Positions 41,131 to 60,570 of a DNA stretch of 64,000 bases are shown piece by piece. A program made the translations under genes and the position numbers. How positions within the stretch are numbered: the first letter of the stretch is position 1; each line of letters starts with the position of its first letter. The notes under the pieces were generated by a model. The model was not told the DNA's origin and ran no database searches. It was given only the letters and a program-made list of their open reading frames with translations. Source of the DNA: a virus; the IMG/VR virus record IMGVR_UViG_3300025598_000001, positions 1 through 64,000 of that record. One strand, given 5' to 3'.

Positions 41131-41233
41131 AATGGACTCCTTATGCAAAAGTTACTATCCCGATCATTGCATTGTCTGCTGGGGCAGTGGTGGAATAGTT
41201 AATCACCCAGATGTTGTTATTTTACACACAAAA

Positions 41234-41262
41234 TTGTTTTTGGGAAGTCTTTTATATACAAT
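41234..41262 (+). promoter_or_regulatory. Candidate sigma70-type promoter of glycosylation cassette
   Basis: TTGTTT (41234-41239), 17-base spacer, TACAAT (41257-41262). The predicted start lies at or within a base of the ATG at 41270, which also lacks a clear Shine-Dalgarno, so the transcript could be leaderless. Confidence 0.45.
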
Positions 41263-41269
41263 CGGACAA

Positions 41270-42817
41270 ATGAACAAAAACCTCACGAATCAGGTTCAAG
41301 TCCTTTACAACCGAGCTTTAGCGCTAAAAAACCAAGGACACATACAAGCAGCGTTAGTTGAGTGTGACAAAATACTAACTACTGTTCCAAAACAATTTGA
41401 TGCCTTGATATTAAAGGGTATCATTCTTAGCGAAAACGGGCGCCAAATAGATGCATTAGGCCTATTTAATGAAGCTTTAAGTGTTAAAAAAGACCCTGCA
41501 ATTTACAATAATCGGGCTAATATTTACCAGCAAATGAAGCAATTTGAGCTGGCTATGGACGATTATGATGCCGCAATTAAGCTAAACCCACGGTTTTTAG
41601 AGGCTCATTACAACAAAGCCAACTGTTACAAAGAAACAAACCAATACCATGAAGCCATTAAATGGTATAAAAAGTCTTTGAAAATTAACCCTAAATACTT
41701 CCATGCTTGGAATAACATGGGGCTTTGTTATCAGTCTGTGCAGGATTTTGAAGGCGCTTTAGAAGCTTGTAAAGAGGGGGCTAAAATTGAGCCTAATAAC
41801 TACGTTATATATAACAACATGGGGTTTGCCCTACATGTTTTAATGCGCTTAGACGAGTCCATAGCGGCTTTTAATAAATCTATAGAGCTTAACCCAGACC
41901 AGACTGATTCTAAATTTAACATTGGGTTTGTACATCTTTTAAAGGGCGACTTAGAAAAAGGCTGGGTCGGGCACGAAGAACGGTTTAAAAATAAATACCG
42001 CCCTACAAACTTACCTAACATGTGGCAAGGTGAGGACTTAAAAGGTAAGACTATATACATAATCCACGAACAAGGGCTTGGAGATACTATTCAATTCATT
42101 CGTTATGCCAAGCAACTAAAGGCTATGGGGGCTAGAGTAATTGTGGGGGTTAAGCCAGAAATAGTAAAGTTAGTCAGTTCTATGCCAGAAATAGACATGA
42201 TTAACACCGATCCTAAGTTTATTCCAGAGTATGACTATCAATGCCCCATGATGAGCTTACCCTACATATTTAAAACTAGGGTAGACAATATTCCGTATCA
42301 CAGATACTTCTTTGCAGATCCTAAAAAAGTTCAAGAATTTTCAAGAAAAATGGGGCCAAAGACCCGACTAAGAGTAGGGTTAGTATGGTCAGGAGGCTTT
42401 CGTGCAGACCAGCCTGAGATATGGGCAGTTAACGAAAGGCGCAATATTAAACCGGAAAAGATTGCAGAAATATATAACCCTAACGTAGAGTTTTTTAACT
42501 TACAGTTTGGCGCTAAAGAGTTGCCTTTTCCTATGGTTGATCTGATGAGTGAGGTTAAAGACTTCTCAGACACAGCGGCTATTATTGAAAATCTGGACCT
42601 AGTCATTAGTGTGGATACTTCTACTGCGCACGTAGCGGGCGCTATGGGTAAGCCTGTATGGATGTTAAATCGGTTTGACACTTGCTGGCGTTGGTTAGAA
42701 GACCGTAAAGATACGCCTTGGTATCCAAGCTTTACCATTTACCGCCAAGAAAAATTTAACAACTGGGACAACGTAGTTGCTGACATTAAAAAGGACTTAG
42801 ATGCAAAATCCAAATAA
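41270..42817 (+). CDS. TPR-repeat glycosyltransferase (GT9/GT41-like)
   Basis: A 515-residue two-part enzyme. Residues about 8-240 are six or seven tetratricopeptide repeats (such as HYNKANCYKETNQYHEAIKWY). The C-terminal domain begins MWQGEDLKGKTIYIIHEQGLGDTIQF and ends DLVISVDTSTAHVAGAMGKPV, the layout of TPR-linked heptosyl/O-linked glycosyltransferases. Start at 41270 (MNKNLTNQVQ). It opens a three-gene plus-strand cassette facing the minus-strand head genes. Likely substrate is a virion protein or host surface glycan; which one is not shown. Confidence 0.88.
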   Translation: MNKNLTNQVQVLYNRALALKNQGHIQAALVECDKILTTVPKQFDALILKGIILSENGRQIDALGLFNEALSVKKDPAIYNNRANIYQQMKQFELAMDDYDAAIKLNPRFLEAHYNKANCYKETNQYHEAIKWYKKSLKINPKYFHAWNNMGLCYQSVQDFEGALEACKEGAKIEPNNYVIYNNMGFALHVLMRLDESIAAFNKSIELNPDQTDSKFNIGFVHLLKGDLEKGWVGHEERFKNKYRPTNLPNMWQGEDLKGKTIYIIHEQGLGDTIQFIRYAKQLKAMGARVIVGVKPEIVKLVSSMPEIDMINTDPKFIPEYDYQCPMMSLPYIFKTRVDNIPYHRYFFADPKKVQEFSRKMGPKTRLRVGLVWSGGFRADQPEIWAVNERRNIKPEKIAEIYNPNVEFFNLQFGAKELPFPMVDLMSEVKDFSDTAAIIENLDLVISVDTSTAHVAGAMGKPVWMLNRFDTCWRWLEDRKDTPWYPSFTIYRQEKFNNWDNVVADIKKDLDAKSK

Positions 42818-43568
42818 CTTGCCATATATTCTTGAAGGTGGTTTAGGAGACTTTTTACAGTTCTTGCCTTTTGTTCAAGTATATCCAGAAAACAAGTACA
42901 TACTTTTGTGCCACTTTAAAGGTGCTAAAGAGTTATGTAAAGCATTAAAAATAAAACCTATTCAAATTGAATATTACGCAACGGAAGAAGAAAAACCCTT
43001 AGCTGTTGGACGGTTAAAACAAAAAGGATTACCTTGCCCACGGATTAGGTACTTTGATAAAAATCCTTTTCCGCCCGCTAAACCTTTATTTACTGACGAA
43101 AGGCCAGTAGTTGGTATACACCTTCACGCCAGTAAAATTGCGCAGTTTTGGCTTAAGAAACTAAACCTACAGCCTAAAAATTTACCGATACCAATCGTAG
43201 AAGAACTAGCAAAAGACTACAACATTATTTTATTTGGATTACCTGATGACTTAATGGCAACCAAAATTAAACAGTCTGACCGAATTAAGTTTGTTTGTTT
43301 TTTAGATATTGCTAAAAGTTTTTCATATGTGTCGCAGTGTAATGCTTTAGTAGGAAGCGATAGTTGTTTTAAAACTCTAAGTGTTATGCAGGGTATCCCA
43401 ACTTTTGTTTGGATCGGTGACCATGAAGACGGATTTAGAGACCAATATTTTGTCGATCCTTATATAAAAGATGGCACTATGGGTCAGTATCGGTTTCATA
43501 TTTTAGCAAATGAGTATGAACCAGCTTTGGCTGCAACTAAAGAATATCTAAAAGGAGTATTGAAATGA
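42801..43568 (+). CDS. GT9-like glycosyltransferase-fold protein (255 aa)
   Basis: Opens PYILEGGLGDFLQFLPFVQ, a Gly-rich loop as in ADP-heptose glycosyltransferases, with GIHLHASKIAQFW mid-way and NALVGSDSCFKTLSVMQGIPT near the C-terminus, the usual sugar-nucleotide-binding end. Shorter than full GT9 enzymes and lacks some conserved acidic residues, so it may be a partner or sugar-binding version. Overlaps the TPR gene by 17 bases. Confidence 0.75.
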   Translation: MQNPNNLPYILEGGLGDFLQFLPFVQVYPENKYILLCHFKGAKELCKALKIKPIQIEYYATEEEKPLAVGRLKQKGLPCPRIRYFDKNPFPPAKPLFTDERPVVGIHLHASKIAQFWLKKLNLQPKNLPIPIVEELAKDYNIILFGLPDDLMATKIKQSDRIKFVCFLDIAKSFSYVSQCNALVGSDSCFKTLSVMQGIPTFVWIGDHEDGFRDQYFVDPYIKDGTMGQYRFHILANEYEPALAATKEYLKGVLK

Positions 43569-44149
43569 AATTTTATGGAGATGTGCGTGACCAACTAGGC
43601 AAACGAGCAACTGGGTTTGACTTTATTTTTAATTACCTTAAAGATATCCGTAACCCATTTATTGCAGAGACAGGCTGCGCTAGGCAAGAGAATAACTATG
43701 AAGGTGATGGCTTAAGTACTTTGTTATTTGACAAATACATAAATGAGTATGGCGGATACTTAGCAGCTGTAGACATCTCGCCCGTAAGCGTACAGTTTGC
43801 CCTTAGTCACATGGTTTGTCCTAGAACCAAGATTGTTCAATCGGATAGCGTTGATTTTTTAAAAATGCTTAATACTGATTTGCAACATGATAAAGTAAAG
43901 ATTGATTTTTTATACCTAGATAGTTTTGACTGGACTGAACAACTACAAGTAGAAAGTGCTACACATCATCTTAAAGAGTTAGAAGCAATTATGCCTAGCC
44001 TAAAACCCGGTGCTTTAATTGGCGTAGATGATAACTGGAAAATAGGTAATACTAGAGTAGGTAAAGGTTGGATGGTGCTAGATTATTTAGCTAGTTTAGG
44101 TATGCAACCTGTATTTGACGAATACCAAATATTCTGGATTTATAAATAA
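43565..44149 (+). CDS. Class I SAM-dependent methyltransferase (194 aa)
   Basis: AETGCARQ (E35-G37) as motif I, a second acidic at LAAVD70, KIVQSDSVDFL (D94), and IDFLYLDSFDW (D119) are the standard SAM-binding and catalytic line-up. Belongs to the Methyltransf_24-like sugar/lipid group. Overlaps the preceding gene by four bases, so probably the third enzyme of one glycan-modification pathway. Ends just before a minus-strand terminator. Confidence 0.85.
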   Translation: MKFYGDVRDQLGKRATGFDFIFNYLKDIRNPFIAETGCARQENNYEGDGLSTLLFDKYINEYGGYLAAVDISPVSVQFALSHMVCPRTKIVQSDSVDFLKMLNTDLQHDKVKIDFLYLDSFDWTEQLQVESATHHLKELEAIMPSLKPGALIGVDDNWKIGNTRVGKGWMVLDYLASLGMQPVFDEYQIFWIYK

Positions 44150-53816: not shown

Positions 53817-53834
53817 AGATGTAAAGTTACATCT
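53817..53834 (+). promoter_or_regulatory. Operator-like palindrome 1 (AGATGTAA-AG-TTACATCT)
   Basis: Perfect 8-bp inverted repeat with a two-base centre. Same family as sites at 54564, 54702 and 55086. It ends four bases before the -35 of the promoter candidate for the gene at 53919. Confidence 0.75.
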
Positions 53835-53838
53835 AAAC

Positions 53839-53867
53839 TTGCAAACGATATCAAACTCTGTTAAAGT
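53839..53867 (+). promoter_or_regulatory. Candidate promoter for gene at 53919
   Basis: TTGCAA (53839-53844), 17-base spacer, TAAAGT (53862-53867). Directly downstream of the palindrome at 53817. Moderate match to sigma70. Confidence 0.45.
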
Positions 53868-53918: not shown

Positions 53919-54503
53919 ATGAAACAAGTAAACGCAATCGAAGCTCAAGTAAAAGCATTAGCTAATACTAAGCCCGTAGAGAAAGCAGTAAGCATTAACG
54001 ATAGTGAGAAAGCTCTGATTATTGAGTTCGTGCAAGTAGCGAATCAGGCTACAAACAAGAACCAACAACTGGCTGAATTGCTATATGCCAATGGCAAGCG
54101 TAGCTATCACTTTGTAGGTGCTAACGACGAAGATAAATCGTTAGTGGCTTTCCGTAATCAAGTGATCGGTTACATTGTGCAGGGTTTTGATAAAGATGCT
54201 CAAAAGCTCTATAGTGCAGAACCAAAGTCTTTAAATATGACTAAGCAAGTGGAAAGGACTGTATTAACTACTAAAACCATTCCTACCTTGTTTGGCAATA
54301 TTAAAAAGGCAATGGTCAAACTTGAAGGCAATATCGCATCAGGTAAAACCGAAAAGGCAAAACCTAAAACTCAAGAACAAATGGCTCGCTATTATGTTAA
54401 GAAAGCCCTTGAGTCAATAGGCAAGTGCAAGAATGGTTGGGAAGGTATGCTCAAGGATAAGCAAGCCCTTGAAGCCCTTGCAGTATTGAAACAAGTTAAG
54501 TAA
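53919..54503 (+). CDS. Hypothetical right-arm protein (194 aa)
   Basis: Lys-rich alpha-helical protein preceded by AAGGAGAAT. N-terminal AIEAQVKALANTKPVEKAVS, central VGANDEDKSLVAFRNQVIGY, and a basic linker KTEKAKPKTQEQMARYYVKK. No recognised family. It stands alone between two non-coding control stretches with its own promoter candidate and a strong terminator, so it is transcribed as a single gene and is a candidate early protein or regulator. Confidence 0.8.
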   Translation: MKQVNAIEAQVKALANTKPVEKAVSINDSEKALIIEFVQVANQATNKNQQLAELLYANGKRSYHFVGANDEDKSLVAFRNQVIGYIVQGFDKDAQKLYSAEPKSLNMTKQVERTVLTTKTIPTLFGNIKKAMVKLEGNIASGKTEKAKPKTQEQMARYYVKKALESIGKCKNGWEGMLKDKQALEALAVLKQVK

Positions 54504-54524: not shown

Positions 54525-54549
54525 AGCCACCCTTCGGGGTGGCTTTTTT
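54525..54549 (+). terminator. Strong intrinsic terminator
   Basis: AGCCACCC-TTCG-GGGTGGCT with an ultra-stable UUCG loop, followed by TTTTTT. It ends the monocistronic transcript of the 194-aa gene. Confidence 0.95.
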
Positions 54550-54563
54550 GCGTCCTAATTTTT

Positions 54564-54581
54564 GGCTGTAACCTTACAGCC
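54564..54581 (+). promoter_or_regulatory. Operator-like palindrome 2 (GGCTGTAA-CC-TTACAGCC)
   Basis: Perfect inverted repeat with the same TGTAA-NN-TTACA core as the others but different flanks (GGC/GCC instead of AGA/TCT), which suggests the core is what is recognised. Confidence 0.7.
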
Positions 54582-54586
54582 ATATT

Positions 54587-54622
54587 GATACCAGTGACTT
54601 GAAGCAGCGTTAAGCATAGGGT
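54587..54622 (+). repeat. 36-bp direct repeat, copy 1
   Basis: Begins GATACCAGTGACTT and ends AAGCATAGGGT. It matches 54722-54757 at 33 of 36 positions; both copies follow a TGTAA-NN-TTACA palindrome within a few bases. Confidence 0.9.
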
Positions 54623-54651
54623 CATCAGGGTCGTTTGGTCATGTGTTTAGG

Positions 54652-54675
54652 TGTTAACCTGTGCACAGGTTAACA
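54652..54675. promoter_or_regulatory. Perfect 24-bp palindrome
   Basis: TGTTAACCTGTG followed at once by its exact reverse complement, with no spacer. Central GTGCAC, flanks GTTAAC. A dimeric-protein binding site or cruciform-forming site is likely. Confidence 0.85.
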
Positions 54676-54701
54676 GTATTTTTTGGCTTTGTCAATAGGG
54701 T

Positions 54702-54719
54702 AGATGTAAGGTTACATCT
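54702..54719 (+). promoter_or_regulatory. Operator-like palindrome 3 (AGATGTAA-GG-TTACATCT)
   Basis: Perfect 8-bp arms (nine counting the flanking T/A). Two bases upstream of the second 36-bp direct repeat. Confidence 0.75.
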
Positions 54720-54721
54720 AA

Positions 54722-54757
54722 GATACCAGTGACTTTAAGCAGCATAAAGCATAGGGT
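54722..54757 (+). repeat. 36-bp direct repeat, copy 2
   Basis: 33 of 36 identical to 54587-54622. Its last bases form part of the palindrome AGGGTTAACCCT. Confidence 0.9.
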
Positions 54758-54770
54758 TAACCCTTATATT

Positions 54771-54954
54771 GTTCCAGTTGTTCCTGATAAAGTTCCTGAA
54801 AAAACCCTTATAAATCAATAAAGTGCCTAAAGTTCCAAAAGTTCCAGCACTTTTTGGGTTTGGGCAAAATCAAACCTGAAAGAAGCACTCTTTTTACTCA
54901 GACCTTTTTGGAACCAAAGCCTATTTACCTTGGAACTTTTGGAACATATGGAAC
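54771..54954. repeat. GTTCC/GGAAC pentamer array (five forward, four inverted)
   Basis: GTTCC begins at 54771, 54780, 54792, 54832 and 54841; GGAAC begins at 54910, 54932, 54941 and 54950. Several neighbours are nine bases apart. The 15-mer GTTCCAAAAGTTCCA (54832-54846) has its exact reverse complement at 54931-54945. Iteron-like arrangement. Confidence 0.8.
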
Positions 54955-55019
54955 AATATTAGAAATCATATACTTAGCTGGCTACAACCAAAGCACTAAT
55001 AGGGACAAATACTGTTTAA

Positions 55020-55048
55020 TTGACCTTGATAGACTTTGACAGTATAAT
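55020..55048 (+). promoter_or_regulatory. Strong sigma70-type promoter of right-arm operon
   Basis: TTGACC (55020-55025), 17-base spacer, TATAAT (55043-55048). Start expected near 55055, giving a leader of almost 90 bases that contains palindrome 4 (55086-55103). Confidence 0.85.
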
Positions 55049-55085: not shown

Positions 55086-55103
55086 AGATGTAACTTTACA
55101 TCT
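55086..55103 (+). promoter_or_regulatory. Operator-like palindrome 4 (AGATGTAA-CT-TTACATCT) in leader
   Basis: Perfect 8-bp arms in the untranslated leader, about 30 bases downstream of the predicted transcription start. Could act as DNA operator or RNA hairpin. Confidence 0.75.
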
Positions 55104-55142: not shown

Positions 55143-55352
55143 ATGTCAAAAGTAAATCATCTATGTAGACAATGTGGCGACAGTATCGACACTCGCCGTT
55201 GGGCATTAGGTTATAAACATTGTCTTTTTTGTGGTGAGGAGTTAGCCAAGCAAAAGAAGTTCACCATTGCACCGATGAACAAGAGCAACTACTTCTGTAT
55301 CACAGACCCCGAATTGCTAAAGCAGTTAAATCCTAAACGCACAGGAGAATAA
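55143..55352 (+). CDS. Zinc-ribbon protein (69 aa)
   Basis: Starts at 55143 with AACAGGAGAATCACT upstream. C8-x2-C11 and C27-x2-C30 form a zinc ribbon, followed by a Lys-rich segment and NYFCITDPELLKQL. Small phage zinc-ribbon proteins often act as accessory transcription or host-takeover factors; no specific function is known. First gene after the strong promoter. Confidence 0.8.
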   Translation: MSKVNHLCRQCGDSIDTRRWALGYKHCLFCGEELAKQKKFTIAPMNKSNYFCITDPELLKQLNPKRTGE

Positions 55353-55992: not shown

Positions 55993-56011
55993 TGTCAAAG
56001 TCTTCTATAAT
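55983..56011 (+). promoter_or_regulatory. Strong promoter of the DUF3150-MoxR-VWA operon
   Basis: TGGACA (55983-55988), 17-base spacer, TATAAT (56006-56011). The -10 lies inside a perfect 18-bp palindrome (56004-56021, TCTATAATA and its reverse complement), so a bound regulator would cover the -10. Confidence 0.85.
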
Positions 56012-56064
56012 ATATTATAGAGTGGTAAAGCGTAGTAAATATTATTAACAACAGGAGAATCATC

Positions 56065-57018: not shown

Positions 57019-57069
57019 CCGCAGTTCCTCACAATCGTAGCACCTATTAACAACATAAGGAGAATCATC

Positions 57070-58194
57070 ATGGCTAAAGCCATCGCAACAGCAGACCGCA
57101 TTTATGCACAATCCCTCGACGAGTGTGTCGATTCAATCCTAGCAACTGGAAGTAAACTTACTACCTTAGTTCAAGGTCATATGGGGACAGGCAAATCATC
57201 TATCCTAAAGATGTTAGCCAGCAAGCTACCCGATCATGTGCCTTGTTACTTTGACTGCACCACGAAAGACTTGGGTGATCTGATGTTACCGAAGATACTG
57301 CGTGACGATAGTGCAGATGACTTTGTTCGGTTCGTGCCTAACGAGGAGATGGGACTACATCATGGTAAGCCAATCATTCTAATGATTGACGAGTTCGGTA
57401 AGGCTAACCCAATGGTTAAGAACGGCATGATGCGTGTGATGTTAGAACGCACAATGGGTAGTAAGAAGTTACCTGATGGATCGATTATCTTTGCAACTAC
57501 TAACCTCGGCACAGAAGGTGTCGGTGACTTACTCATGCCACATCATAGAAATCGTATCACCACAATACGCATGAAGAAGCCGACTGCAACGGAATGGATC
57601 GAAGGGTTTGCTTTCAATGCTGGTATTCACCCATCAATGATCTTATGGGTTAAAGAACATGGTGAGCAACTGTTCCAATCGTTTGAAGATGTAGAGAAAC
57701 CTGATGATGAAGTCGGTGGTAATCCATACATCTATCACCCACAAGCGCAACGACCATCTTTCGTTACTCCAAGATCGCTGGAACTGGCATCACATTGGCT
57801 ATGGGCTAAGGATAGAATCAGCGAGAACGCATTGAAGTCGAATCTAATCGGCACTATCGGTGATCGTGCTGGCTCTGACCTCGGTGCATACATCAAGCTG
57901 GTAGATGAGTTGCCTCGCCAAGAAGATATCAAGAACGATCCGATGAACGCTAAAGTTCCTAGCAATAGTTCAGCAGTCGTGATGGTTGTCTATCGTGCAT
58001 TGGCTACCATGAACAAGGAATGGATCGATCCATTCATGGACTATCTTGGTCGGTTAGATATGGAAGCGCAATCATTGTTTGCTATGCAAGTTCGTAACCC
58101 TAAATACCAGAAGCAAGGACTTGTCATGACCAATAAGAAGTTTACTGCATGGTGCATGGCTAACAACTTTATGTTTACCGCAGATAAGAAGTAA
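57070..58194 (+). CDS. MoxR-type AAA+ ATPase (374 aa)
   Basis: AAA+ core: Walker A GHMGTGKSS (36-44), Walker B IILMIDEFGKA (D107-E108), sensor 1 FATTNLG (N145), arginine region HHRNRITTIRM (R160/R162). The C-terminal lid region (about 190-374) is long. Assignment to the MoxR/CbbQ-like clade rests on the VWA partner and motif context. MoxR ATPases act as chaperones that activate or assemble client proteins. AAGGAGAAT precedes ATG; the 3' end carries the next leader element (58187). Confidence 0.88.
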   Translation: MAKAIATADRIYAQSLDECVDSILATGSKLTTLVQGHMGTGKSSILKMLASKLPDHVPCYFDCTTKDLGDLMLPKILRDDSADDFVRFVPNEEMGLHHGKPIILMIDEFGKANPMVKNGMMRVMLERTMGSKKLPDGSIIFATTNLGTEGVGDLLMPHHRNRITTIRMKKPTATEWIEGFAFNAGIHPSMILWVKEHGEQLFQSFEDVEKPDDEVGGNPYIYHPQAQRPSFVTPRSLELASHWLWAKDRISENALKSNLIGTIGDRAGSDLGAYIKLVDELPRQEDIKNDPMNAKVPSNSSAVVMVVYRALATMNKEWIDPFMDYLGRLDMEAQSLFAMQVRNPKYQKQGLVMTNKKFTAWCMANNFMFTADKK

Positions 58195-58204
58195 CTTTAC
58201 ATCT
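58187..58204 (+). promoter_or_regulatory. TGTAA-family leader element (one mismatch)
   Basis: AGAAGTAA-CT-TTACATCT spans the stop of the AAA+ gene and is followed by AACAGGAGAATGATATGG. One arm base differs from the perfect palindromes. Confidence 0.65.
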
Positions 58205-58218
58205 AACAGGAGAATGAT

Positions 58219-58374
58219 ATGGATAAATTGCTGATTGGTTCTAAGTTAAGGTCATTGATTGAACACTACGCAGAAGTTACGACGGAAGAACACATGACTG
58301 GAAAACTAAACAAAGAAGCAGATAAAACATGGAATGAAATAACGCAGTTAATCAATAAATTAACAGGAGAATAA
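58219..58374 (+). CDS. Small hypothetical protein (51 aa)
   Basis: Begins MDKLLIGSKLRSLIEHYAEV, with a helical, charged remainder ending LINKLTGE. CAGGAGAAT seven bases upstream of ATG. Lies between the ATPase and VWA genes, so possibly a small adaptor of that complex. No known family. Confidence 0.6.
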   Translation: MDKLLIGSKLRSLIEHYAEVTTEEHMTGKLNKEADKTWNEITQLINKLTGE

Positions 58375-58376
58375 CA

Positions 58377-59546
58377 ATGCTAGCCATTGGTAAAGAACTA
58401 ACCGCCGAGCAACGGCTATGGAAAGCAACGACTGATATATTGGGTCGTGATGAGTTCGTAGCGCTTGCTGGTGTGTTGATGATTGGTAGTAAGAAGATAT
58501 CAGATGATTGCCCAACTGCCGCAACGAACGGGCGAGATGAGATATATGGTCGTAGGTTCGTCGATAGTTTGAATGATGCCGAATTTAGATTCCTAATACT
58601 ACATGAGTGCTATCACAAAATGTATCGGCATCTAACAACTTGGAAGAACTTGCATGACATAGATCATATGCGGGCGAACATGGCTTGTGACTATGTTATC
58701 AATCAGAAGTTATTGGATATGAACTTGGGTAAGTGGATTAGTATGCCGAAGGGCGGTTGTGCTGATGAGAAGTATCGCAACATGAACGCTAAACAAGTCT
58801 TTGACCAACTACCCCCGCAAGATAATGATGGTGAAGGTGGTGGCGGTGGTGGTGGGTTCGATGACCATGACTGGGACGGCGCACAAGATATGTCAGCCGA
58901 GGAAGCCGAAGCATTGGCTAAGGAGATTGACGAAGCCGTAAGGCAAGGTGCAGTTCTAGCTGGTAAAGCTGGCTCGGGTGGCAATCGTGATATCACAGAG
59001 TTATTGCAGACCAAGAAGGATTGGAAAGAGTTACTGCGTGACTTTGTGACAACAACTTGTGCTGGTAAAGATTACTCGACATGGAAGAAACCTAATCGTA
59101 GATACATAGGCATGGACATACTGATGCCCTCGTCTATCAGCGAAACAATGGGTGAGATCGTGATCGGTGTCGATACCTCGGGTTCGATTGGTCAGCATGA
59201 ACTTAACAAGTTCTTAACCGAGATCAAGGGCATATGCGATCAGGTTAAACCTAGCAAGATTCGTTTGATGTATTGGGACACCTTAGTATGTAAAGAGGAA
59301 GTGTATGACGAACAATCCCGGGAGAACTTAGTTAGATCAACGAAGCCAGCTGGCGGTGGTGGAACTGATCCCGAGTGTGTGCCGAGATACATGGCAGAAC
59401 ATAATATCAAGCCCGAAGCCGTAGTGATGTTGACCGATGGCTATGTGGGTTCGTGGGGTCAATGGTCTGTGCCTGTGGTTTGGTGTATTCAGGGTAACAG
59501 TTCAGCGAAAGCAGATGTGGGTGTAACTTTACATATAGAGGACTGA
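58377..59546 (+). CDS. DUF2201-type metallopeptidase-VWA protein (389 aa)
   Basis: Two domains. The N-terminal zincin-like part has HECYH (76-80) and a conserved MACD105YVIN. After an acidic Gly-rich linker (about 145-200) comes a von Willebrand A domain with an intact MIDAS: D266-T-S268-G-S270, T330 in GGGGTDP, D354 in LTDGYVG. This is the architecture of DUF2201 proteins encoded with MoxR ATPases. ACAGGAGAATAAC ribosome site is inside the previous gene's end. It probably binds the AAA+ partner through the VWA domain; peptidase activity is uncertain. Confidence 0.9.
   Translation: MLAIGKELTAEQRLWKATTDILGRDEFVALAGVLMIGSKKISDDCPTAATNGRDEIYGRRFVDSLNDAEFRFLILHECYHKMYRHLTTWKNLHDIDHMRANMACDYVINQKLLDMNLGKWISMPKGGCADEKYRNMNAKQVFDQLPPQDNDGEGGGGGGGFDDHDWDGAQDMSAEEAEALAKEIDEAVRQGAVLAGKAGSGGNRDITELLQTKKDWKELLRDFVTTTCAGKDYSTWKKPNRRYIGMDILMPSSISETMGEIVIGVDTSGSIGQHELNKFLTEIKGICDQVKPSKIRLMYWDTLVCKEEVYDEQSRENLVRSTKPAGGGGTDPECVPRYMAEHNIKPEAVVMLTDGYVGSWGQWSVPVVWCIQGNSSAKADVGVTLHIED
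59523..59536 (+). promoter_or_regulatory. TGTAA-family half element at VWA gene end
   Basis: GTAACTTTACATAT inside the last codons of the VWA gene, followed within a few bases by GAGGACTGATATGC at the next start. The left palindrome arm is lost. Confidence 0.55.
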
Positions 59547-59676: not shown

Positions 59677-60557
59677 TGGGAATGTTGAATAGCTTTGATG
59701 CCGTAGCTAAGTGCTATGCAGAAACGAAACCGATTCAAGGTGCAAGGAAAGCGCAAGACTTGCGACCACTAGCCGAACGCAGATATTGGTGGAATCGTGT
59801 CATGAAAGTAAGTGATACAAAATACTTATTATTAGATGGTCATTGGTCATTCAATATGTATGTGAATGATCCAGTAATGGTTGAGCAGACTGCACCGATT
59901 ATGTGGGAACGCAAGGGAGATGGTGATTACCTGACAATCCATAACCATTCAGATGGTGGTATGTCCGTATCTCGCTATACATTTTTAGATAGATACTTGC
60001 CTAGTGGTATGCGGTTTGACTGGACTGGTAATGGTAAACACTTTGTCAGGTACGAAGGCAAGGAGTATTACCTACCTAAGTTTAAGTCTAAGATAGATTG
60101 GAACAACAAGACCTTTACCATGATTGAAGATCACAAACTTGTATTCAAGGTTGATGGAACTGGCTTCAAGCGTGTCGGCGATCTGTTGCCCATGCCTACA
60201 AGACGAGTGGATAAAGAGGTAGATGCACACTTCAAAGAACCTATCAAGATCATGTGGGAATGGATGCAGATTGTGTTACCTGTAATGGGCGATACATTGG
60301 GTGATAGTAAGCAAGCCTATGCCGAATCGTTAGGTGCGACTAGCTATTGGTACTGGGTAAAACAAATAGATAAGAACTTAGCAAGAGAAATCCTTGAAAA
60401 CCCTGAGCATGACAAGCGTATGGCACTTGCTGGACTATCGGTTTATGACATTGGTGCTATCGATAATGGTAGGTTTGAACCGACTAAAGAATCATGGGCA
60501 AAGTTTAGATCGCTGATGCGCAGAATTGGCGGTATGTATGCAACAGAAATGCAGTAG
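59673..60557 (+). CDS. Unrecognised operon protein (294 aa)
   Basis: Aromatic-rich protein: RRYWWNRVMKVSDTKYLLLD, WSFNMYVND, LDRYLPSGMRFDWTGNGKHF and SYWYWVKQIDKNLAREIL. No motif recognised. ATGs at 59673 and 59676 are both possible (AGGAG four or seven bases upstream). Part of the same operon as the AAA+/VWA genes; could be their client. Ends at the next leader element. Confidence 0.75.
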   Translation: MMGMLNSFDAVAKCYAETKPIQGARKAQDLRPLAERRYWWNRVMKVSDTKYLLLDGHWSFNMYVNDPVMVEQTAPIMWERKGDGDYLTIHNHSDGGMSVSRYTFLDRYLPSGMRFDWTGNGKHFVRYEGKEYYLPKFKSKIDWNNKTFTMIEDHKLVFKVDGTGFKRVGDLLPMPTRRVDKEVDAHFKEPIKIMWEWMQIVLPVMGDTLGDSKQAYAESLGATSYWYWVKQIDKNLAREILENPEHDKRMALAGLSVYDIGAIDNGRFEPTKESWAKFRSLMRRIGGMYATEMQ

Positions 60558-60570
60558 TAACTTTACATAT
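60557..60570 (+). promoter_or_regulatory. TGTAA-family half element before gene at 60582
   Basis: GTAACTTTACATAT starting at the last base of the upstream stop, followed by AGGAGAATGATATGG. Nearly the same leader as at 58191-58222. Confidence 0.6.

Follow-up and report, generated by a model that had tools for sequence, protein, structure and literature searches.

A candidate master control region for the early genes in a family of uncultured phages

What is the role of a gene-free interval of 470 bp, densely filled with repeats and palindromes, at the head of a phage's early genes? The window analysed here comprises 64 kb out of a 66,194-bp IMG/VR virus record, in which the early genes begin at 53.9 kb and read rightward across the record end as far as 10.4 kb, and the late genes are directed leftward for the most part. 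The early set includes genes for a family-A DNA polymerase, an SNF2-type helicase and a DUF927 primase/helicase as well as an AAA gene and a VWA gene; the interval lies at its head, between the genes for proteins of 194 and 69 aa (Table 1). As a whole, the interval is best explained, and with fair probability, as a master control region for the phage early genes.

Layout of the interval and its phage family

Relatives were gathered in two ways, via the AAA gene and via a 36-bp element of the interval. About 20 contigs of related phages share the gene-free interval, with its elements in the same order: a terminator, an 18-bp palindrome, the 36-bp element, a second palindrome, a second 36-bp element, pentamers in both orientations, an AT-rich stretch, a sigma-70 promoter, a third palindrome and a gene start. 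All repeats and palindromes listed in the original prediction are present, including the two 36-bp direct repeats (33 of 36 positions identical), each 3' of a TGTAA-NN-TTACA palindrome, the perfect 24-bp palindrome (the next-longest perfect palindrome in the window has 18 bp), the AGGGTTAACCCT palindrome, and the five GTTCC and four GGAAC pentamers with their exact 15-bp inverted pair. Loss of the repeats in close relatives had been named as evidence against that prediction; upon examination, the architecture was retained. The palindromes P0, C and that at 59519, the main early promoter and the terminator score of the 24-bp palindrome are additions of the present analysis.

The 36-bp element occupies the same place in more than 20 contigs, where it is mostly paired, and each copy usually lies 3' of the host phage's own palindrome. 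An RNA structure was rejected for it, as 6 weak pairs with 1 double change in 29 sequences amount to essentially no covariation, and an Rfam search of the control region gave nothing reaching the gathering score. Four relatives (L010, L014, L015 and L017) also have the 24-bp palindrome, its stem retained, its centre altered and a T-run behind it. This fits a terminator hairpin, which is a better reading than a site for an initiator. For the 194-aa gene, the possible promoter aligns with TTGCTA/TTGTAA-17-TAAACT in L011 and L020, and is not among the calls of the consensus promoter scan.

Searches of nine related records for tyrosine and serine integrases (PF00589, PF00239) and for the HTH_3 repressor (PF01381) found none, and the control genomes were positive; the combination of integrase and HTH_3 repressor that marks a temperate-phage immunity region was thus not found in these nine, possibly incomplete, records. 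For the phage RNA polymerase (PF00940) the control genomes themselves gave no signal. A lytic lifestyle is likely, with some room left for plasmid-like prophages or other repressors. The control region had no match in the phage collection, and the examined portions of the cultured terminase relatives HTVC023P and DSL-LC04 contain no palindrome that is repeated. Bacterial genomes gave no relative of the AAA gene, and therefore no clue to the host.

Several further observations concern the genomes of this group. At 57070–59546 the AAA ATPase (MoxR-like) adjoins a DUF2201 metallopeptidase/VWA protein, and this pair is strongly conserved across the phage group. The DUF927 primase/helicase homologue at G013:C1:22578-25409 has one in-frame TGA. 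A perfect 18-bp palindrome, TCTATAATATATTATAGA, distinct from the operator set, precedes the 56065 gene at 56004–56021. Both ends (1–53 and 64912–64936) of the 64,936-bp contig L006 / G002:C1 are formed by control-region palindromes, which suggests that this genome may be circular or circularly permuted and was opened by the assembler at the control region.

Table 1. Features of the control region and the early genes, with the site types found in the window and its relatives
Feature	Position	Strand	Remarks
Palindrome P0, AGATGTAAAGTTACATCT	53817–53834	.	5' of the possible −35 box of the 194-aa gene
Possible promoter of the 194-aa gene	53839–53867	+	TTGCAA-17-TAAAGT; read from sequence
194-aa all-helical protein, candidate operator-binding regulator	53919–54503	+	covariation with site type; AlphaFold2 model
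Intrinsic terminator of the 194-aa gene	54525–54544	+	terminator prediction; stem with paired changes retained in L011/L020
Palindrome A, GGCTGTAACCTTACAGCC	54564–54581	.	TGTAA-NN-TTACA
36-bp element R1	54587–54622	+	
24-bp perfect palindrome	54652–54675	.	terminator-like hairpin, then T-run; scores as intrinsic terminator
Palindrome B, AGATGTAAGGTTACATCT	54702–54719	.	TGTAA-NN-TTACA; 2 bp from R2
36-bp element R2	54722–54757	+	
AGGGTTAACCCT palindrome	54753–54764	.	GGGTTWACCC form conserved in several relatives
Forward iteron-like GTTCC pentamers	54771–54845	+	at 54771, 54780, 54792, 54832, 54841; degenerate GTGCC near 54823
CCTTATAAAT box	54806–54815	+	between forward pentamers 3 and 4
Left arm, pentamer inverted repeat	54817–54846	+	80% over 30 nt
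Exact 15-bp inverted pair	54832–54846 / 54931–54945		
Inverted GGAAC pentamers	54910–54960	-	at 54910, 54932, 54941, 54950; right arm 54931–54960
IHF-consensus position of relatives, AATCATATACTTA	54964–54976	+	not a full match in the window
Sigma-70 type promoter	55020–55048	+	TTGACC-17-TATAAT; 11/12 score; conserved in relatives
Palindrome C, AGATGTAACTTTACATCT	55086–55103	.	between promoter and ribosome-binding site, just outside the 470-bp interval
First gene of the following early operon	55143–55352	+	69 aa, CxxC pairs
Apparently decayed old-type (AGTAA) site	56032–56049	.	5' of the 56065 gene; compared with L005/L008 sites; interpretation
Apparently decayed old-type (AGTAA) site	57037–57054	.	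5' of the AAA gene; interpretation
Hybrid site AGTAACTTTACATCTAAC	58190–58207	.	left half old, right half new; interpretation
TGTAA palindrome GGGTGTAACTTTACATAT	59519–59536	.	
Hybrid site AGTAACTTTACATAT	60556–60570	.	left half old, right half new; 5' of the 60582 gene; interpretation
Site type TGTAAnnTTACA			window, L011, L016, L020
Site type TACGTAACGTTACGTA			L005
Site type AGTAAnnTTACT			L008, L009
Site type TAGTCnnnnGACTA			L010, L013, L017, L019
Site type GTCTAACGTTAGAC			L014
Site type GTTAGTGnnnCACTAAC			L022
Site type GTTACCCCnnGGGGTAAC			L026
Site type TATACATATGTATA			L028
Site type TTAGGTAATTACCTAA			L033

Repeated palindromes and the 194-aa protein

The commonest palindrome of the window's 12-kb early region has five copies, compared with at most three (mean 1.6) in Markov-simulated sequence, and the commonest palindromes of relatives reach 9–10 copies, compared with at most two. 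Nearly every relative has one palindrome of its own that is repeated several times (up to 10–11), mostly inside a stretch of some 10 kb that holds early genes and, in the longest records, largely confined there. The sites follow each other about every 0.1–1.8 kb and recur upstream of or near early-gene starts, many of them 14–45 nt 5' of start codons and some inside genes; many copies of one site are spread through the early genes, as in stoperator systems. The position and design of the sites are conserved among the phages (16–20 bp palindromes across lineages, with no centre or a 2-nt centre in several of these) and the sequence varies (AGTAA, TAGTC, CTAAC and other types, those in Table 1 being a non-exhaustive selection). 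At the P0 position, the lineage's own palindrome occurs in most relatives where this could be checked. Judging by their recurrence through the relatives' early region and by their tracking of the 194-aa gene, the TGTAA palindromes appear operator-like, that is, candidate operators. They lie 5' of one promoter, 3' of another and inside genes, and so no single simple repression mode is indicated.

The gene located just 5' of the control region encodes a product of about 175–250 aa in every relative where it is readable, and its divergence greatly exceeds that of the adjacent genes: in G003, identity is 91% for the AAA protein vs. 28% for the 194-aa protein. Across phages of shared ancestry, and with half-site similarity as a crude measure, 194-aa similarity is correlated with palindrome type when AAA similarity is taken into account (partial r = 0.52, permutation p = 2e-4, 17 phages; partial r = 0.46, p = 3e-4, 15 phages). 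The 55143, 56065, VWA and 52114 genes show no such tracking against the AAA baseline in 15 phages (p 0.24–0.98), and the 194-aa gene is the only one of the five genes tested that follows the site type. In the pair L022 and L024, the AAA proteins are nearly identical (0.99), the 194-aa proteins are unrelated (0.06) and the palindromes are different. Divergent groups of the 194-aa protein are homologous (hhalign 98.7%, E 2.9e-16, 179 columns). Site sequence thus covaries with one phage protein, which is again a stoperator-like trait.

In the AlphaFold2 model, the 194-aa protein is all-helical (mean pLDDT 82), and a DNA-binding fold cannot be recognised in it. No significant match came from searches of Pfam, PHROG and PDB sequences or from fold comparison, the latter reaching VIA-align Z ≤6.2, which is within the common range for helical models. 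From the covariation we infer that the gene probably encodes an operator-binding regulator. In this view the protein would form a symmetric complex on the 18-bp palindromes and may control its own promoter through P0 (autoregulation), the main early promoter through palindrome C, just 3' of its start, and further early genes through the other palindromes; as to the sign of regulation, it would probably act as a repressor or an elongation roadblock.

Two other readings of the palindromes should be considered. The location of many sites 14–45 nt 5' of start codons, together with the comparable ESAS repeats known from cluster K mycobacteriophages (PMC3203893), would fit RNA hairpins or processing sites 5' of ribosome-binding sites, i.e., a translation-linked repeat and not DNA operators. 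However, centres that are absent or of 2 nt in several lineages would make poor hairpins, sites also occur 5' of a −35 box, beside the 36-bp elements and inside genes, and site sequence tracks a protein gene, which makes this explanation very unlikely. The occurrence of sites about every 0.1–1.8 kb, some within genes, and an all-helical protein without a known regulator domain would fit parS-like sites, with the 194-aa protein as a DNA-organising, partition or protection factor and not a transcription regulator. We regard this as rather improbable too, since the sites directly adjoin promoters or starts of genes, and one of them lies at the possible promoter of the 194-aa gene itself, as in autoregulation.

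The pentamer array as a possible replication origin

Iteron-type origins, such as lambda ori, pSC101, R6K and the phage P4 ori, are composed of short repeats at fixed spacing and AT-rich DNA, with an IHF site in many of them. The nine GTTCC/GGAAC pentamers within 200 bp form the window's densest cluster for this pentamer (0.38 are expected from its overall frequency), and it is tied as the densest of any pentamer in the window. The spacing (12/32/9/9 bp forward, 9/9 inverted) is kept in most relatives, and the letters vary among them (GTTCC, GTTCG, GTACC/GATCC/GAACC), so the array represents tandem short repeats with conserved spacing, as in iterons. It differs from known iteron origins in that its 9-bp units form two triplets, inverted with respect to each other, with candidate operators and 36-bp elements on the flanks and, in the window, from many of them by the absence of an IHF match. 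The likeness of the arms is greater within a phage than between phages (p = 1e-4), yet the arms are mosaic between phages; strict stem pairing was dropped because arms often match those of other phages better than their own.

In most phages, raw 50-bp AT maxima of 0.76–0.86, which overlap the promoter region, are found beside the array. IHF-consensus matches occur in 13 of the 18 control regions (19 found vs. 0.7 expected), although these regions are homologous and therefore not independent; the control region of the window has no full IHF match and no DnaA boxes. In the genomes checked, the minimum of the cumulative GC skew is near the control region, which is also where gene orientation changes between early and late genes; at the plus-strand island (41.1–44.1 kb) the skew changes sign. 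GC skew is therefore no independent evidence for an origin, and it was set aside as confounded by gene orientation. The island consists of three plus-strand genes (41132–44149) within the leftward late genes, TPR/glycosyltransferase-like and methyltransferase-like as judged by eye.

The spacing, the inverted arms and the AT-rich neighbour agree with a replication origin, and we put the chance that the array is one at about even; the polymerase and primase/helicase genes of the genome are counted in favour of this reading. Within the proposed mechanism, origin would be the most likely function of this iteron-like array, with its 9-bp-spaced pentamers, two inverted arms and AT-rich DNA, and since it lies between operators, a link between replication and early transcription through palindromes A and B is conceivable. 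The original choice between initiator-binding sites and complex operators is probably to be answered with both: the TGTAA palindromes are operator-like and the pentamer array is iteron- or origin-like, and the original prediction is borne out in part.

A purely transcriptional region, in which the pentamers would be operators of a second regulator beside those of the 194-aa protein and no origin would exist, agrees with the strong promoter adjoining the array, the terminators within the control region, the sufficiency of gene orientation to account for the GC skew and the fact that no initiator was identified. Nevertheless, inverted arrays that are long, conserved, strict in their spacing and next to AT-rich DNA exceed the needs of one promoter, and the pentamers cluster nowhere else in the window; we consider this explanation possible, if on the unlikely side.

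Possible operator turnover and known systems

Some sites look as if they were caught between two specificities. L005 is a mosaic which has a GTAA-type regulator with matching upstream sites, and yet intact AGTAA-type sites downstream. The apparent relic and half-converted sites in the window, few as they are, may be interpreted as traces of operators being rewritten once the regulator had been exchanged. A broader scenario, which we put forward only tentatively, is that phages without a detectable integrase or HTH_3 repressor carry a hypervariable regulator with a new DNA-binding fold, that operators are rewritten across the early region at each swap, that immunity-like specificity groups exist among apparently lytic phages, that the origin is embedded in the operator cluster, and that the window phage is half-way through a rewrite.

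The nearest systems in behaviour are the cluster A repressor with its stoperators, SPBRE/MrpR and ESAS. In the cluster A mycobacteriophages (L5, Bxb1), one repressor serves many genome-wide sites, some at promoters and most not, and the consensus varies in correlation with repressor distance (PMC6550527); each stoperator is an asymmetric site of 13 bp to which the repressor binds as a monomer (PMC9283540), and these phages have immunity systems. The phages studied here share with them the many sites and a phage-specific consensus that follows protein divergence, but their sites are symmetric 16–20 bp palindromes and not 13-bp asymmetric ones, the 194-aa protein matches no known repressor family, and the nine records searched gave no integrase. 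The SPbeta repeated element (SPBRE) is an intergenic phage repeat recognised by one master regulator, MrpR, a protein of tyrosine-recombinase fold that keeps the phage in lysogeny (PMC10516654); the likeness lies in a repeated intergenic phage element with one candidate phage regulator, and the difference in that the 194-aa protein has no match to this fold. In cluster K mycobacteriophages, the extended start-associated sequences (ESAS) are inverted repeats of 17 bp, imperfect and with spacers mostly of 4–13 bp, located 5' of a subset of non-structural genes and tied to a 13-bp start sequence, and their consensus varies by subcluster (PMC3203893). Inverted repeats ahead of genes with a lineage-specific consensus are thus common to both, whereas a covarying protein occurs here and none is reported for ESAS in the sections consulted (PMC3203893). 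Among the known systems compared, none was found with the same protein family or with a symmetric site and an embedded iteron-like array.

If the proposed reading is true, this uncultured phage family would represent a built-in lock-and-key series, with about ten operator specificities and their matching regulators in otherwise similar genomes. The evolution of DNA recognition would become directly testable, including the number of sites rewritten after a swap, and an unannotated protein family would obtain its first function. One would then have to ask what leads phages that show no lysogeny module to diversify their operators in the manner of immunity systems.
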